DNA from: a virus
Reading direction: 5' to 3' (one strand)
IMG/VR virus record: IMGVR_UViG_3300024265_000131
Location: 1-38,093 of that record
DNA length: 38,093 bases
Part shown: positions 17,974 through 38,093 of the stretch, in pieces
Layout: each line of letters begins with the position of its first letter
How positions within the stretch are numbered: the first letter of the stretch is position 1
Notes under the pieces: model-generated
What the model was told of the DNA's origin: nothing
Seen by the model: the letters and a program-made list of their open reading frames with translations, nothing else
Database searches by the model: none
Translations under genes and position numbers: made by a program

Positions 17974-18261
17974 ATGGATATAGCATCAATAAAAGCATTA
18001 TTGACTATGCTCTTAATAACCACAGCTTATTTATTTCCGATAGTATTGCTGATAGTTGGATTTATCAAAAGTAAATTCAATACTACTGGTAACACTACTT
18101 TTATAATCAGCTTGGTTATTTCGCTTCTCATTGCAGTAGGCTATGGTTTGTTATCTACTTTAATTTATTGGCAGATAATAATCTTATATATCATGGTTGC
18201 AATTGCGTCTAATGGCGGATATACTGTAATGCAGAATATAATCAATAAGAAGAATCCTTAA
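17974..18261 (+). CDS. Holin, three membrane helices
   Basis: 95 residues with three hydrophobic segments: residues ~5-31, ~41-63 and ~64-80, and a short basic tail (NKKNP). Preceded by a very strong ribosome site (AAAGGAGGTGAGG). In the lysis module with the lysin and two short membrane peptides, this is the best holin candidate, making holes through which the lysin passes. The stop codon (18259-18261) is only two bases from the consensus promoter. Confidence 0.8.
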   Translation: MDIASIKALLTMLLITTAYLFPIVLLIVGFIKSKFNTTGNTTFIISLVISLLIAVGYGLLSTLIYWQIIILYIMVAIASNGGYTVMQNIINKKNP

Positions 18262-18262
18262 C

Positions 18263-18290
18263 TTGACAATTAAAAATCACAGTGTATAAT
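18263..18290 (+). promoter_or_regulatory. Consensus promoter of small RNA
   Basis: TTGACA (18263-18268), 16-bp spacer, TATAAT (18285-18290): both hexamers match the sigma-70/A consensus perfectly, the best promoter found in the genome. It begins two bases after the holin stop and points toward a terminator less than 80 bases away, so it drives only a very short transcript. Confidence 0.88.
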
Positions 18291-18296
18291 GAAATA

Positions 18297-18361
18297 GGGA
18301 ATGGCTTACCGCTGTTTCTCCTTGTCTATAGGTCAGGTGTTTCTCCACCTGGCCTTTTTTG
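18297..18361 (+). ncRNA. Predicted small RNA, anti-ribosome-site
   Basis: Expected RNA of about 65 nt, from roughly 6-7 bases after the -10 box to the end of the terminator. It has an open middle with TTTCTCCTTGTCTAT (18315-18329) that is the reverse complement of the ribosome site motif in front of many early genes (11-13 contiguous bases at 18665, 19133, 20800, 21864, 22683 and 29576; with one G-U at 25851). The short piece GTTTCTCC occurs twice, at 18314-18321 and again in the terminator loop (18339-18346), as in regulatory RNAs with C/U-rich seeds. A 21-codon open frame (ATG at 18301) overlaps it, but the ATG directly follows AGGGA with no spacing. No database family recognised. Confidence 0.6.
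18330..18361 (+). terminator. Strong terminator, end of late operon and small RNA
   Basis: AGGTCAGGTG (18330-18339) pairs with CACCTGGCCT (18346-18355) with one G-U, loop TTTCTC, then six or seven T. It closes both the lysis/late transcript coming from upstream and the short RNA from the promoter at 18263. Confidence 0.92.
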
Positions 18362-18624
18362 TTTGAATGCCCCTCTACAATACCCTTTAAAATCATATTA
18401 AGCCATGTATCAGGAGACTTATTTCATTGTAGGCGTATTGGTATCAGAAAAAGACATCTCGGAAACTTTGAAAAAAACGACCATTATTTTCCCTATTATA
18501 TATATATGTTATGTATATACTAAAATGAATAGTAATAGGCTAAATAATGGATTGAAAATGAGCATCATATTTTCAGAATGCATTCTGCTGTATTTTAATT
18601 ACTAAAATAAATAATAAATATACC
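18362..18624. other. AT-rich intergenic control region
   Basis: About 263 bases without a convincing gene. It holds a run of TA repeats (TATATATATG around 18496-18510), a 14-bp palindrome at 18574-18587, and no ribosome site. A 66-codon frame (18405-18605) exists but has no site and no coding-like features. The position between late and early operons, the AT run and the palindrome make it a candidate for an operator or replication origin; neither is proven. Confidence 0.5.
18574..18587. repeat. 14-bp palindrome, copy 1
   Basis: CAGAATG followed by CATTCTG is a perfect inverted repeat about 40 bases upstream of the early promoter. Copy 2 at 29633-29646 keeps the same palindrome and neighbouring bases (TCAGAATGCATTCTGC then GTAT and TTT), although the two read in different frames. 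Likely a dimeric protein's binding site; the phage's own HTH proteins are candidates. Confidence 0.6.
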
Positions 18625-18652
18625 TTGACTTCTTGTTTGAAGGTGTTATAAT
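18625..18652 (+). promoter_or_regulatory. Early promoter 1
   Basis: TTGACT (18625-18630), 16 bp, TATAAT (18647-18652). It is followed within about 13 bases by TAGACAAGGAGA and the first early ATG at 18681. It is one of three similar promoter-plus-leader units (others at 20768 and 25819). Confidence 0.85.
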
Positions 18653-18664
18653 ATACTTGTAATT

Positions 18665-18676
18665 TAGACAAGGAGA
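18665..18676 (+). promoter_or_regulatory. Early ribosome-site motif, 12-nt sRNA match
   Basis: TAGACAAGGAGA in front of the ATG at 18681. It is the exact reverse complement of 18317-18328 in the predicted small RNA. Confidence 0.75.
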
Positions 18677-18680
18677 GAAA

Positions 18681-19130
18681 ATGAAAACAAATGCTTACAA
18701 ACAGACTACAATTCACTGGGGGAAATCACAAGCTAATATAATGACTTTACTTGAAAAGCAGGGAGTAGAAGACATAAGGTTTACATTTCTGCAATCCAAA
18801 AATGAGCTTATTTGTGAATTCAATTATCCGTGTGAAATAGATAATAAACAATTATCTTATGGAGTAAGGATTGTTGTTCCTGTAGCTTCCAATGATGATA
18901 AATTTAAAAATCAAATACATAGAGCATTATTTTATTATTTGAAAACAAAATTCGAAGCTTTGAATTTTGGATTAGTAGAATTCGTTAAAGAATTCATGCC
19001 TCATTTAGTAATCACAGATAAAAATGGAATGAGTAAAACTTTGCATGAAATCATATTGCCACAATATAAAAAAGGATTAATAAATGGAGAACAGGGAGAT
19101 ATTAAAATGCTTCCTGAAAAATCAAAATAA
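18681..19130 (+). CDS. Early protein of a phage family, 149 aa
   Basis: 149 residues. Mixed alpha/beta with a start (YKQTTIHWGKSQANIMTLLEK) and middle (RALFYYLKTKFEALNFGLVEFVKEFMPHL) that look like a family of early phage proteins of unknown role, often placed near recombination genes. First gene of the early operon, with the strongest promoter and ribosome site. No catalytic motif seen, so no function is assigned. Confidence 0.75.
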   Translation: MKTNAYKQTTIHWGKSQANIMTLLEKQGVEDIRFTFLQSKNELICEFNYPCEIDNKQLSYGVRIVVPVASNDDKFKNQIHRALFYYLKTKFEALNFGLVEFVKEFMPHLVITDKNGMSKTLHEIILPQYKKGLINGEQGDIKMLPEKSK

Positions 19131-19132
19131 TC

Positions 19133-19144
19133 AGACAAGGAGAA
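19133..19144 (+). promoter_or_regulatory. Early ribosome-site motif, 12-nt sRNA match
   Basis: AGACAAGGAGAA, before the ATG at 19151; exact complement of 18316-18327 in the small RNA. Confidence 0.7.
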
Positions 19145-19300: not shown

Positions 19301-19448
19301 AGGGTCAGCTTCTAAAGAAAATGTTTTACAATCCATAAATGTGTTGGTTTTATTTTTTAGATATAATGATAAAACCCAGTTTGTATCTATGGAATCATTA
19401 GAAGCGGAGTTGTTAGAATTGGAAGAAGAAATCAAGGAAGGTGAATAA
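19290..19448 (+). CDS. Small hypothetical protein, 52 aa
   Basis: 52 residues from the ATG at 19290, preceded by GGAGGAATC; the longer in-frame start at 19215 lies inside the acidic gene and lacks a site. The C-terminal half is a Leu/Glu-rich helix (LEAELLELEEEIKE), a likely coiled coil. It ends as the next gene begins (TAATG overlap). Not recognised. Confidence 0.65.
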   Translation: MVFKGSASKENVLQSINVLVLFFRYNDKTQFVSMESLEAELLELEEEIKEGE

Positions 19449-20799: not shown

Positions 20800-20811
20800 A
20801 TAGACAAGGAG
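20800..20811 (+). promoter_or_regulatory. Early ribosome-site motif, 12-nt sRNA match
   Basis: ATAGACAAGGAG before the ATG at 20818; exact complement of 18318-18329 in the small RNA. Confidence 0.75.
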
Positions 20812-20817
20812 GATAGC

Positions 20818-21882
20818 ATGAAGAAAAAGAAAAAGGTTAAGGAAAAGACTGTAAAAACCAAAAAGAAAACTACAAAAAAGAAACCCGTAAAACCCACGGC
20901 AATAGTTAAGAAGAAAAAGAGAAAGAAGAAATCAATAGAGGTTGCAAAACCAGCTCCAGTATTATCTCCTCTCCCTAAAGTAACCGAGAAGATTTTAAGT
21001 GATTATTTATTTGGTACTAAAACCAAATTGACTGATGGACAAAAAATAATGTTCTTTCAGATTGCAAAAATAAATAATCTTAATCCTTTTAAAAAAGAAG
21101 TATATCCGGTTTTATATGAGGAAAAGAATTTCGGCAAATCTTATAATCCACCTGTTTTTAATTTGGTAGTAATGACAGGGTATGAAGTCTATTTGAAAAG
21201 AGCAGACCGAAGTGGTCAGCTTGCCGGATGGAATACTTCTATATCAGGAACCGGAGAAGACAGAGAAGCAAAAATAGTAATATGGCGAAAAGATTGGAAT
21301 GAACCATTCACTCATTTTGTAACGTGGAAAGAATTCGGAAAGTCAACTCCAATTTGGAAAAGCATTCCTGATTTCATGTTGAAAAAAGTGGCAATATCCC
21401 AGGGGTTCAGGTTAGCATTCCCAAATGAATGTGGGGATTTGCCATATATAAGTGAAGAAATGAAAGACGTTACTCCTGAAGGAAATGTAGAAATCGGGCC
21501 CGCACCAAAACAAATAGAATCCAGTAAGGTGGAAATCAAAACTCCGGACAAATACACATTGCCTAAAGACATAAATCCTGATACCTTATGTGCCGTTGGC
21601 CCGTATAAAAACAAGCCTAAAAAATATAGTGACATATCTCTTGACAGGTTATTGATTCTTCATAAGAAATCAGAAAACCCAGAAGAACTTACTCCTGCAT
21701 TGAGACATATAGTTGATAATTTAATTTTGAATGCTTGTAAACTCAAAGGGCTTGAATTTGCCGAGCTGAAGAAATTAATCCAGCGAAAATTCAAAAAAGA
21801 TAATTTACTGGACTTGAAACTGGATAAAAAATTAGTTATATTAAAAGAAGTAGGAAAAATAAAAGACAAGGAGAAAAAATAA
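20818..21882 (+). CDS. RecT/Bet-type ssDNA-annealing recombinase
   Basis: 354 residues from the ATG at 20818 (motif ACAAGGAGG just upstream); the ATG at 20779 lies in the leader. The core has the Bet/RecT signatures FFQIAKINNLNPFKKEVYPV, MTGYEVYLKRADRSG, FVTWKEFGKSTPIWKSIP and VAISQGFRLAFPNECGDLPY. It binds and anneals single-stranded DNA in homologous recombination. It is followed by an exonuclease, the usual pair. Unusual: residues 1-45 form an almost pure Lys-rich tail (KKKKKVKEKTVKTKKK). The C-terminal ~120 residues are extra helical. Confidence 0.9.
   Translation: MKKKKKVKEKTVKTKKKTTKKKPVKPTAIVKKKKRKKKSIEVAKPAPVLSPLPKVTEKILSDYLFGTKTKLTDGQKIMFFQIAKINNLNPFKKEVYPVLYEEKNFGKSYNPPVFNLVVMTGYEVYLKRADRSGQLAGWNTSISGTGEDREAKIVIWRKDWNEPFTHFVTWKEFGKSTPIWKSIPDFMLKKVAISQGFRLAFPNECGDLPYISEEMKDVTPEGNVEIGPAPKQIESSKVEIKTPDKYTLPKDINPDTLCAVGPYKNKPKKYSDISLDRLLILHKKSENPEELTPALRHIVDNLILNACKLKGLEFAELKKLIQRKFKKDNLLDLKLDKKLVILKEVGKIKDKEKK
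21864..21876 (+). promoter_or_regulatory. Early ribosome-site motif, 13-nt sRNA match
   Basis: AGACAAGGAGAAA before the ATG at 21882, and it is also the last codons of the recombinase. Best match: exact complement of 18315-18327. Confidence 0.75.
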
Positions 21883-22070: not shown

Positions 22071-22680
22071 AGATTTCAAAATCAGGGACGGAATCCGTTT
22101 TGATTCGGTCACTACCTCGTTAGGGATAATAAGGAAACCCAGTCTTGAAGAATGGCGCGGAAATGTTGGGAATAAAATGGCTGATGAAACTTTGAAAACG
22201 GCAGGAATATTCGGCGATGAAATCCATGAATATGTAAACATGATAAATAACGGAAATGGTTATGAAATAGACATTAAGAAACTGGAGCCTCGTAAAGCTT
22301 TTTTAGTATCATGGTTTAAGGATTGGTTTTTCGAGAATGTTCAAGAAGTTATTTATAGTGAAAAAGAAGTTTTTAGCGAAAAGCACAGATACTTCGGACA
22401 TTTAGATTCGATATACTTATTGAAAAATAAAAAGAAACCGGATATAATTGATATTAAAACGGGTTCTATTTTAGACAAGTCGGTTAGATGGCAGACGAGC
22501 GCTTATTTGGAAGCAGCAAAAGAAGACCTTGACATCAATATTGATAATCGTATAATAATCTGGTTGCCTCGGAAAAACAAAAAATGTCAAGCGATTTATT
22601 TAGACAAGTCAACGCATGAAATTGATTTTTTAGGTTTTATACATGCAAAAGAATCGTATAAAATCTGGAATCAAAAATAA
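22057..22680 (+). CDS. PD-(D/E)XK exonuclease, RecB/Cas4-like
   Basis: 207 residues. Motifs of the RecB-type nuclease family are visible in order: GDEIHEYV with His57, a Glu-rich helix, YFGHLDSIY with Asp117, DIIDIKTG with Asp132 and Lys134, and QTSAY with Gln146/Tyr150 (the QxxxY motif). Such 5'-3' exonucleases prepare single-stranded DNA for the annealing protein encoded just upstream. A Cas4-like iron-sulphur cysteine set is absent. Good GGGAGG site before the ATG. Confidence 0.85.
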   Translation: MRNHEDFKIRDGIRFDSVTTSLGIIRKPSLEEWRGNVGNKMADETLKTAGIFGDEIHEYVNMINNGNGYEIDIKKLEPRKAFLVSWFKDWFFENVQEVIYSEKEVFSEKHRYFGHLDSIYLLKNKKKPDIIDIKTGSILDKSVRWQTSAYLEAAKEDLDINIDNRIIIWLPRKNKKCQAIYLDKSTHEIDFLGFIHAKESYKIWNQK

Positions 22681-22682
22681 AA

Positions 22683-22693
22683 AGACAAGGAGA
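22683..22693 (+). promoter_or_regulatory. Early ribosome-site motif, 11-nt sRNA match
   Basis: AGACAAGGAGA before the ATG at 22699; exact complement of 18317-18327. Confidence 0.7.
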
Positions 22694-25850: not shown

Positions 25851-25862
25851 ATAGACAGGGAG
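25851..25862 (+). promoter_or_regulatory. Early ribosome-site motif with one G-U
   Basis: ATAGACAGGGAG before the TTG at 25869. It pairs with 18318-18329 over 12 bases with a single G-U in place of A-U. Confidence 0.6.
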
Positions 25863-25868
25863 GATAGA

Positions 25869-26402
25869 TTGAAAAAAACAGACAACTTCAAGAAGCGAAT
25901 GCAAGAAAAAGAGAGAGAAGACAAGGCTTTATCTGCTCATAATCAGGTTTTAAAATATCGAAATACAATAGTATTCAATAGGTTCTTATATGTTATGAGC
26001 CTTCGTGTTATTGTTCAGAATGAATTCTGGAGGGAATTAGATTGTGAAAGTTTCGAGATGTATCATTGCCAGCCTGAAGTTGATATCGGTTTAATTCCAG
26101 CTACTGTAAAAAAGTATATAAAAATCATTGATGATTTATTGGATAAAGGAATGGATGAATCTGATATGAAAGAATTGACTATAAACAAATTGGATATAAT
26201 GAGGAATGCAAGGAAGCCTGTTGACTGGGTTGACTCTGCTAAAACTTTAGGGTATTCAGATTTGAAGAAAGAAATATATAAAAAGGAAAAGGGCATAGAG
26301 CCTATGGATGAAGTTGAAAAGGCATTGAAGGAAGAACGTTCCGGGACTCTTGAAGTATGTAAGAATATGAAAAACGGGAAATGTCAATTAGGAGCATTTT
26401 GA
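25869..26402 (+). CDS. Hypothetical protein after early promoter 3, 177 aa
   Basis: 177 residues, TTG start at 25869 behind GGGAGGATAGA. Basic first half, then a helical DDLLDKGMDESDMKELTINKLDIM segment and charged tail. The VDIGLIPATVKKYIKII part resembles a helix-turn-helix, but the match is weak. First gene of a promoter-driven unit that runs toward the methyltransferases. Confidence 0.6.
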   Translation: MKKTDNFKKRMQEKEREDKALSAHNQVLKYRNTIVFNRFLYVMSLRVIVQNEFWRELDCESFEMYHCQPEVDIGLIPATVKKYIKIIDDLLDKGMDESDMKELTINKLDIMRNARKPVDWVDSAKTLGYSDLKKEIYKKEKGIEPMDEVEKALKEERSGTLEVCKNMKNGKCQLGAF

Positions 26403-28434: not shown

Positions 28435-29005
28435 AGACAAAATCATTCTTGATTTATGCGGCGGAACTGGAGCGTGGAGTAAACCATATAAAGATGCCGG
28501 TTATGATGTAAGGTTGATTACTTTGCCGGAGAATGATGTGTCTTGTTATATTCCGCCTGAAAACGTTTATGGTGTTTTATCAGCTCCTCCCTGCACTATG
28601 TTTTCTTTTGCCCGAACAAATGCAAAAACGCCTCGAAATTTAGGCGATGGAATGAAAACAGTAATTGATTGTTTAAGTATTGTTTGGCGATGTCAATATA
28701 AAACAAAAAAAGAACATCAAAGAAAACCTCCTTTGAAATTTTGGGCTTTAGAAAATCCGAATGCTGGATTAAAATGGTTTTTGGGTAGGTCTGTTTATAG
28801 ATTCCAACCGTATGAATTTGGCGATAAATATACAAAGTGTACTTGCTTATGGGGGTATTTCAATGAACCAAAAAAACAAATTTATTTTAATATGGGATAT
28901 AAGAGCATACATCATGAAGAAGATTGGACTACAAGAAACCGGCAAGAAATAAGAAGTATAACTCCCCCGGGATTCGCAAGGGCTTTTTATGAAGCTAATA
29001 AATAG
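28415..29005 (+). CDS. C5-type DNA cytosine methyltransferase-like
   Basis: 196 residues. The SAM-binding start IILDLCGGTGAWSKPYKDAGY, Cys60 in SAPPCTMF (the catalytic PPC motif), ENPNAG (113-118, like motif VI) and late RSITPPGFARAFYEAN follow the C5-methyltransferase order. It is compact, with little room for a target-recognition domain. Presumably modifies phage DNA against restriction; no restriction enzyme is seen. Family call good; specificity unknown. Confidence 0.75.
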   Translation: MKLLKNKDKIILDLCGGTGAWSKPYKDAGYDVRLITLPENDVSCYIPPENVYGVLSAPPCTMFSFARTNAKTPRNLGDGMKTVIDCLSIVWRCQYKTKKEHQRKPPLKFWALENPNAGLKWFLGRSVYRFQPYEFGDKYTKCTCLWGYFNEPKKQIYFNMGYKSIHHEEDWTTRNRQEIRSITPPGFARAFYEANK

Positions 29006-29033
29006 ATTAATTAGATTATGGAGGTTATTTGTT

Positions 29034-29597
29034 ATGAAGAAAGTAATTAATATTGATTGTGAAGGAACGGCTTATTTAGACATAGACGAATTAAAGAACT
29101 TCCAGGGGAATTTAAAAGAGCTGCATGAAGACGATTACAATAAATTGAAAGAAAGCATATTATCAGAAGGGTTCAAATTCCCTGTTTTTATCTGGGGTAA
29201 AAATATCATTGATGGTCATGGCAGGATTTTTGTTGTCAGAAAATTAATGTCAGAAGGATATAAATTGAGTGGCAAAATACCAGTGATTAAAATAAATGCT
29301 AAAAATGAAAAGCAGGCTAAGAAATTAATATTATTATTAAACAGCAAATATCAGAAAATAACTAAGCAGGGTTTATATGAATTCATAGAGGAAAGCGGGC
29401 TTGATTTTGATGAATTGAAAAATCAGATAATTATTCCTGAAATCAATTTGGCTTATTTTGAGAATGAATTTTATAAAGAAGGCGCGGAACTTCCTGAAAT
29501 GCCTGACCTTCCTAAAGCGAATACTACAAAAATAAAATATAAATGCCCTAAGTGTGGACATCAATGGCAAACAAAAGACAAGGAGAAGAAGAAATGA
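29034..29597 (+). CDS. ParB/Srx-domain protein with zinc tail
   Basis: 187 residues from the ATG at 29034 behind GGAGG (the 28989 start has no site). The DYNKLKESILSEGFKFPVFIW and IIDGHGR (59-64) motifs are of the ParB N-terminal/Srx fold, followed by NEKQAKKLILLLNSKYQK. A zinc knuckle YKCPKCGHQW lies near residue 169-178. Such domains are often joined to DNA methyltransferases in phages; here the methyltransferase is a separate gene just downstream. Role is probably DNA binding or targeting. Confidence 0.78.
   Translation: MKKVINIDCEGTAYLDIDELKNFQGNLKELHEDDYNKLKESILSEGFKFPVFIWGKNIIDGHGRIFVVRKLMSEGYKLSGKIPVIKINAKNEKQAKKLILLLNSKYQKITKQGLYEFIEESGLDFDELKNQIIIPEINLAYFENEFYKEGAELPEMPDLPKANTTKIKYKCPKCGHQWQTKDKEKKK
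29576..29587 (+). promoter_or_regulatory. Early ribosome-site motif, 12-nt sRNA match
   Basis: AGACAAGGAGAA, before the ATG at 29594 and also coding for the end of the ParB-like protein; exact complement of 18316-18327. Confidence 0.6.
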
Positions 29598-29689
29598 TAT
29601 TGAATAAAAGCGGAGGGGATTTACCTGTTAATCAGAATGCATTCTGCGGTATATTTTTTGCTTCACTGAATAAAAAGGATTTAAGTTGA
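29594..29689 (+). CDS. Tiny coupled ORF, 31 aa
   Basis: 31 residues starting with ATGA overlap to the ParB stop (29594-29597) and ending with TTGA overlap to the methyltransferase start (29686-29689). The double overlap and the shared ribosome motif suggest it is translated. It carries palindrome copy 2 (29633-29646). No family recognised. Confidence 0.5.
   Translation: MILNKSGGDLPVNQNAFCGIFFASLNKKDLS
29633..29646. repeat. 14-bp palindrome, copy 2
   Basis: Same perfect inverted repeat as at 18574-18587, with matching flanks (TCAGAATGCATTCTGC, then GTAT and T run). The two copies are read in different frames, so the likeness is at DNA level. Confidence 0.6.
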
Positions 29690-36893: not shown

Positions 36894-38093
36894 ATGCGAA
36901 ATGTAACAGCAAAAGAATTAAAAATCAAAAGGGAAGGCTTCAGGAATCTTTATTTCTTGACGAAGCACATTCTCGGATATAAGGAATTAGAAGAAAGGGT
37001 TCACAAACCATTATGCGATTTTATTCAATACACTCCGGGCCGGCTGTATGATTTAGAGCCTAGAGATACTTTCAAGACTACCTGCGGTTCAGTAGGTTAT
37101 TCTATTTTCTGCATTATAAACAATCCCAACATAAGAATATTATTGAGCCATAAGACCACTTCAAAAGCAAAAGAAATATGCGGTGAAATAAAATCCCATT
37201 TTCAAGAAAACGAGATGTTCAGAAGGTTCTATGGAGACTGGGTAGGGAGTAGTTTCTGGGGCGTTGAAGGGTTTACAGTAAACAGGCGGAATAAAGTTGT
37301 CAGAGAGCCAACGCTGACCCCTGGCGGTACGAATAAGGAAGCTACTTCAGCTCATTATGATTTGCATATCAATGATGATTTGGCAGGTTTGAAGGATATG
37401 TATTCTCTAGCAGAGCGGGACGCGGTATTGAGGTATTATAAAGCGCAAAAATATTTAAGAGATAAAGGGAAGTTCATAAAAGAATTGAATATCGGGACTC
37501 GATGGCACTTAGACGATATTGCTTCTTATGCTATGGGATTAAAAGGGATGAATATAAGAATCAAGCAGGCATTAATTAAATCGGGTAGAGGTTATAAGGC
37601 TTATTTCCCTTCCCGGTATACAGTCAAAGAATTATTAGCCGAGCAGGAAGAAGACCCGGTATTTTTTGCTTCTCAAAGAATGAATAATCCCCGTCCTTCA
37701 GAAATGCAATTATATAATGCAGATAAATTAAACTATTTTGAAATGGATGGATTTAAGCCGAGTTACAATATAGGATATATTGACCCTGCATTCGGGAAGG
37801 ATAACAAAGGGAAGCCTTGCTTTCTCAGTTTTCCTATTGGAAGTATCATACATGATAAAATACATATAATAGACTGGCCAACAAATAGATATACGGCTGC
37901 TAAAAATGAAATATTAATTATTTCCAAAATAAAAGAACATAACCTGCAAGCTTTAGGTATAGAAGGCAATGTTGCTCAAAGTGAATTCATAAGGAACATC
38001 AAAAAGGAATTGCATAAAGAAGGAATAATAATAAATATAATTGAAGTTACTAATACCCGGAATAAAGACAGGCGCATTCAATCAATGCATGGG
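36894..38093 (+). CDS. terL: Terminase large subunit, N-terminal 400 codons
   Basis: 400 codons to the window end; the gene finishes at 308 after the circular join (456 residues in all). ATPase signatures: Walker A-like PRDTFKTT (56-63, where Asp replaces the usual Gly), Walker B-type YDLHINDD (155-162), and the coupling motif GTRWHLDD (201-208). The nuclease part begins with YIDPAFG (Asp297) and continues with ALGIEGN (Glu357). It drives DNA into the head and cuts it. The ATG at 36894 has no good ribosome site and starts 7 bases after the methyltransferase stop; an ATG at 36890 is out of frame. Confidence 0.93.
   Translation, partial: MRNVTAKELKIKREGFRNLYFLTKHILGYKELEERVHKPLCDFIQYTPGRLYDLEPRDTFKTTCGSVGYSIFCIINNPNIRILLSHKTTSKAKEICGEIKSHFQENEMFRRFYGDWVGSSFWGVEGFTVNRRNKVVREPTLTPGGTNKEATSAHYDLHINDDLAGLKDMYSLAERDAVLRYYKAQKYLRDKGKFIKELNIGTRWHLDDIASYAMGLKGMNIRIKQALIKSGRGYKAYFPSRYTVKELLAEQEEDPVFFASQRMNNPRPSEMQLYNADKLNYFEMDGFKPSYNIGYIDPAFGKDNKGKPCFLSFPIGSIIHDKIHIIDWPTNRYTAAKNEILIISKIKEHNLQALGIEGNVAQSEFIRNIKKELHKEGIIINIIEVTNTRNKDRRIQSMHG
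37968..38093. repeat. Terminal direct repeat, right copy
   Basis: Identical to 12-137. Together they close the assembly and place the large terminase across the join. Confidence 0.95.

Follow-up and report, generated by a model that had tools for sequence, protein, structure and literature searches.

A predicted phage small RNA complementary to a repeated ribosome-site motif of early genes

Introduction

Several antisense RNAs of phages have been characterised. The c4 RNA of P1 and P7 is reviewed as an antisense RNA that blocks the ant ribosome site (PMC12197685), and lambda OOP and P22 sar are short antisense RNAs, each directed against one phage gene; aQ is covered in the same review (PMC12197685). 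PreS of lambda and VpdS of VP882 are trans-acting phage sRNAs whose reviewed targets include host RNAs (PMC12197685). Overall, most of the antisense RNAs covered there have either a single phage gene or host RNAs as their targets (PMC12197685).

On the side of the targets, Cluster K mycobacteriophages carry the SAS motif GGGATAGGAGCCC, which contains a Shine-Dalgarno (SD) sequence and is repeated before non-structural genes (PMC3203893). SAS is longer than rRNA pairing explains, and the authors left open whether its reader is an RNA or a protein (PMC3203893). A SAS-type motif, GGGAAAGGACCCC, is present in Cluster EF Microbacterium phages (PMC7302621).

Antisense RNAs of phages that cover a ribosome site, and SD motifs that recur before early genes, have each been described on their own. 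An earlier note on the DNA studied here had stated that no phage RNA of this exact type is described; with c4 and SAS each on record, that statement has to be softened (PMC12197685, PMC3203893), and what stands is that no publication joining an antisense RNA with a repeated early SD motif was found in the open-access literature searched. The motif described below shares the features of SAS: it is repeated, contains an SD sequence, precedes early starts, has conserved bases outside the rRNA pairing and lies mostly in one orientation. It therefore resembles SAS on the target side, although its sequence and the phage that carries it are unrelated to Clusters K and EF. A transcriptome analysis has reportedly been carried out for ZoeJ, a Cluster K phage.

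The phage genome and its small RNA locus

The window, i.e., the whole stretch of DNA analysed, is 38,093 bases long and comprises one virus record. Its ends overlap (about positions 1-137 against 37957-38093), with 117 of 117 compared bases identical, so the record probably represents a complete genome that maps as a circle; the gene for the terminase spans the joined ends. The main genes run rightward, with structural and lysis genes up to 18261, the early region next and the terminase last. No tRNA was found in the window, no Rfam family matched at gathering score anywhere in it, and no integrase was seen among the subset of proteins scanned.

Megablast against phages returned no near relative of the genome, single-protein scans of viral and bacterial contigs returned no close relatives of the genes neighbouring the small RNA, and pattern scans returned no homologs of the small RNA itself. 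Twelve relaxed-pattern matches lacked the hairpin and terminator layout and were rejected as chance. Geobacillus phage GBK2 is distant kin (portal, 27%), while TerL alignment identified one true relative, an 8.3-kb fragment (L156; terminase 47%) that spans only the terminase, portal and neighbouring genes, with the small-RNA region outside it. Across the megablast, protein, pattern and TerL searches, no relative covering the small-RNA region was found. The phage carrying the locus is previously undescribed and is represented by a single orphan genome.

The locus separates the late (lysis) module from the early one and comprises the following features.

18263-18290, plus strand: sigma-70 promoter for the predicted small RNA, TTGACA-16-TATAAT, 12/12 consensus positions
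18297-18361, plus strand: predicted small RNA of ~65 nt, with a putative start ~7 nt past the -10 box and a putative end in the T run
18297-18319, plus strand: 5' hairpin of 9 pairs (folding)
18320-18329, plus strand: single-stranded linker CCUUGUCUAU, 10 nt, candidate seed or toehold (P unpaired 0.65-1.00)
18330-18361, plus strand: intrinsic terminator with a 10-pair stem and U tail (folding, region-wide hairpin comparison)

The earlier note had read here a full-consensus promoter followed, after ~65 bases, by a strong terminator. The promoter indeed matches the consensus throughout, and the terminator hairpin (18330-18355) with its T run ranks first in the 18-37 kb region both by pairs and by G-C pairs. 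Recurrence of GTTTCTCC near the terminator loop was likewise found again. The stretch 18315-18329 had been taken as unpaired, which holds for 18320-18329, the sole single-stranded segment of the predicted fold; positions 18315-18319 are mostly paired within the 5' hairpin (P unpaired 0.07-0.32), whose 3' arm GUUUCU lengthens the complement. The small RNA folds at -24.5 kcal/mol (z -4.4), and none of 200 shuffles folded equally well. With its own promoter and intrinsic terminator, a length within ~50-150 nt and no ORF, it has the layout expected of phage trans-acting antisense sRNAs.

Judging from its place after 17974-18261, the terminator probably also ends the late operon. As it lies where the late operon must end, readthrough of late transcripts might add to the small RNA. 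Only one other promoter within 18-37 kb is a 12/12 match; it is located at 22529-22556, within the exonuclease gene and upstream of the target gene 22699.

Predicted target sites in the early region

The complement of the small RNA recurs before seven start codons spread over 11 kb, at spacings of 5-8 nt. The sequence AGACAAGGAGA precedes the starts at 18681, 19151, 21882, 22699 and 29594. The sites are listed below together with the first early promoter; ranks refer to interaction energies among 64 start regions and serve as a consistency check.

18625-18652, plus strand: early promoter TTGACT-16-TATAAT ahead of 18681, 11/12 consensus positions
18666-18676, plus strand: target site AGACAAGGAGA before ATG 18681 (149 aa), 12-nt match, rank 6/64
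19133-19143, plus strand: target site before ATG 19151, 12-nt match, rank 7/64
20802-20812, plus strand: target site (AU)AGACAAGGAGG before ATG 20818 (RecT-like annealing protein), 12-nt match, rank 1/64
21864-21874, plus strand: target site before ATG 21882, 13-nt match, rank 4/64
22683-22693, plus strand: target site before ATG 22699 (exonuclease PHROG match), 11-nt match, rank 3/64
25853-25863, plus strand: target site (AU)AGACAGGGAGG before TTG 25869, pairing through one G-U, rank 2/64
29576-29586, plus strand: target site before the 31-codon ORF 29594, 12-nt match, rank 5/64

The six complementary runs previously reported, of 12 nt (18681, 19151, 20818 and 29594), 13 nt (21882) and 11 nt (22699), are exact, and both the pairing through a single G-U at 25869 and the shorter run of 10 nt at start 33460 were confirmed. 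For 29594, which had been called an early gene, the 12-nt match stands, and the reading frame is an ORF of just 31 codons, overlapped at its end by the TTG of the methyltransferase gene at 29686. Similarly, the 3' end of the 21882 ORF overlaps the exonuclease gene 22057. Through these two overlaps, translational coupling could extend an effect on the ORFs to the exonuclease and the methyltransferase. For three of the targets, a promoter-like site (18625, 20768 or 25819) lies ahead and the target is the first gene behind it; the rest lie inside operons.

On the minus strand, AGACAAGGAGA has a single copy in the window, at 18317-18327, inside the small RNA. Because no start codon lies behind this copy, it cannot serve as the SD sequence of a gene on the minus strand, a possibility that was considered and ruled out.

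Other features overlap some of the sites. Two of them (21864-21880 and 29576-29597) coincide with the final codons of the preceding genes, namely those of the RecT-like protein and of a 202-aa protein (28989-29597), both of which end in KDKEKK before the stop codon; the protein sequence therefore constrains both sites too. The sites at 20802 and 25853 lie ~7 nt past -10-like boxes, so that AUAGAC could partly mark the transcript start. Separately, the palindrome AGAATGCATTCT, embedded in TCAGAATGCATTCTGC-GTAT, occurs in exactly two copies, one upstream of the early promoter 18625 (18575-18586) and one within the 31-codon ORF 29594 (29634-29645). A phage regulator, perhaps the helix-turn-helix protein encoded at 19448, probably uses it as its operator.

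Chance controls and interaction energies

The complementarity is real and lies well beyond chance. In line with the shuffled-control check that the earlier note had proposed, none of 10,000 dinucleotide shuffles of the small RNA equalled the observed matching by reaching six start regions at >=11 nt (maximum 5, mean 0.08). When 65-nt windows were slid along the whole plus strand, none but the small RNA matched at least three start regions at >=11 nt. Permutation of the ten linker bases never yielded seven sites at -12 kcal/mol (0/200, maximum 2), nor did any of the 200 permutations match the mean energy of the best seven. The small RNA thus exposes an accessible seed that is complementary to several start regions in trans beyond chance, as members of the sRNA class do.

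A more demanding control kept the CTCCTT core and shuffled the rest, whereupon 52 of 5000 sequences (1%) reached six start regions. The anti-SD-like core therefore accounts for the matching only partly and is insufficient alone.

Interaction energies were calculated as RNA-RNA cofolding minus self-folding for 64 start regions that we selected from ORFs and SD scores. The seven targets occupy ranks 1-7 of the 64 (mean -15.9 vs -5.7 kcal/mol by cofolding), a result that serves as a consistency check and not as an independent discovery, since the targets were known beforehand from complementarity; real control comes from the permutation tests.

Proposed mechanism

Since promoter, fold, complementarity and target specificity were all computed and agree with it, the best-supported reading of the locus is an antisense sRNA that acts in trans to block early translation, and on sequence grounds we consider it probable. 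The earlier note had favoured a trans-acting RNA on early messages, and the energy ranks (1-7 of 64, with targets preselected), the linker permutations (0/200) and the failing case for a ribosome-tail match (see below) point the same way. Transcription of the small RNA, its pairing in the cell, the repression and its timing are what we infer from these computed features.

In this model, a dedicated strong promoter at the junction of the late and early modules would drive transcription of the ~65-nt RNA. The linker would act as a toehold on the AGACAAGG part of the extended SD motif of seven early genes, and pairing would next invade the 5' hairpin, so as to cover GGAGA too. With the ribosome site masked, initiation would be blocked on the leading gene in each of three early transcription units. 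Initiation would also be blocked on recT, on the exonuclease (via the overlapping upstream ORF) and on the methyltransferase leader ORF. The predicted outcome is a coordinated shut-off or damping of early expression.

Repeated start motifs in other phages

A motif of GBK2, GAGGGGTAAA, stands before six genes and has no antisense copy. An antisense copy was found in this phage for just one of the top motifs, a 10-mer that itself precedes two genes only. A repeated start motif alone therefore needs no RNA. In the 25 records reached via TerL, AGACAAGGAG occurs at most once in each.

Cluster K offers a closer comparison, as one inverted SAS copy is mentioned in four of its phages (PMC3203893). In Angelica (HM152764), the inverted SAS lies at 58634-58646, within a structured region (58613-58664) near the right genome end that is conserved (homologs L023-L036) and often unannotated. 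In six divergent K1 phages, a strong hairpin carries the inverted copy CCTCCTATCC as its apical loop, which is exactly complementary to SAS positions 1-10. The loop is invariant, and two pairs of the stem are changed on both sides, which lends the hairpin modest support. Other Cluster K clades have ~15-20 unchanged SASs with a loop that is different or missing. Co-variation of loop and SAS thus fails outside K1; we do not claim a general mechanism for Cluster K, and our estimate for any such claim is kept low. Either K1 gained an RNA reader independently or the match there is fortuitous. In AnnaSerena (Cluster EF), no inverted SAS was found within 20-56.7 kb.

That start-region motifs repeat without an antisense RNA in GBK2, and in Cluster K SAS outside clade K1, would suit a protein reader. 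On such a reading, AGACAAGGAG is the site of a RegA-like phage translational repressor, and the inverted copy on the minus strand arose by chance or is a relic. A repressor protein predicts no antisense copy exposed in a promoter-terminator RNA, however, and the window containing this copy is the sole one of its kind in the genome; we therefore judge the protein reading very unlikely.

The AGAC part of the motif and ribosome pairing

Usual 16S tails (CCUCCUUUCU-type) do not pair with GACA. AGAC stands before A[A/G]GGAG at 7/18 early sites versus 0/5 late sites, and in the whole set at 7/39 versus 0/25 (p=0.025); the AGAC part is absent from all late genes, in line with the earlier note, by which late genes mostly use GGAGGA-type sites lacking GACA. 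Tetramers other than AGAC occur at this position <=2 times each, genome-wide on the plus strand.

These counts bear on the view that the motif is merely a strong SD sequence fitted to the 16S tail of the host, with the small RNA a chance anti-SD look-alike. CUCCUU within the complement is indeed the anti-SD core, and keeping the core raises chance matches. Yet the seven sites are not the best ones for the usual anti-SD tail, and late genes lack AGAC. Moreover, among the 118 matches to GGATCACCTCCTTGTC listed from bacterial and archaeal genomes, about the number expected by chance, none was a 16S gene end; the listed matches include no 16S tail ending CCTCCTTGTC and no bacterial 16S ending CCUCCUUGUCU. 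On these listed matches, a host 16S tail as the source of GACA is not supported. Together with the core-kept shuffles, this upholds the former claim that SD conservation alone is insufficient, and makes the look-alike most unlikely. That ribosome pairing does not explain the AGAC part appears, from the sequences compared, a strong but not complete case.

Discussion

Two further readings were weighed. The promoter and terminator lie upstream of the early genes on the same strand, an arrangement that might represent antitermination control of the downstream early operon, similar to lambda pR'-tR'/6S RNA, with complementarity secondary. A separate 11/12 promoter, at 18625, belongs to the early operon, and antitermination leaves the linker match to seven start sites without a reason, which renders it just as improbable as the look-alike. 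Least probable of all is the opposite effect of the same pairing, i.e., protection or activation of early messages, for example at 5' ends at 20818 and 25869, where the sites lie at presumed transcript starts, ~7 nt past -10-like boxes, because pairing covers the SD core GGAG 5-8 nt from the start codon and would normally block initiation.

If the antisense RNA does repress early translation as proposed, 65 nt of DNA would switch a whole early gene set after transcription. The locus also points to a concrete way of testing SAS motifs, which were described in 2011 in phages growing in a laboratory host (PMC3203893). Phages might repeatedly evolve a regulon of shared ribosome sites read by one antisense RNA, the present locus and the K1 hairpin being independent inventions. 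We regard this idea as doubtful; if true, it would answer what reads SASs.

Among described systems, c4 of P1 and P7 and lambda OOP are the closest precedents, together with SAS on the target side. With c4 the predicted RNA has in common that a phage antisense RNA would act over a ribosome site with its complement exposed in a structured RNA (PMC12197685). Unlike c4, which is described as acting on the ant message, one RNA here fits seven start sites and has its own promoter and terminator, and its predicted targets are recT, a nuclease, a methyltransferase leader and further genes in place of an antirepressor. It would act in trans on many genes, unlike lambda OOP and P22 sar, and its predicted targets are the early genes of the phage itself, which sets it apart from PreS and VpdS.
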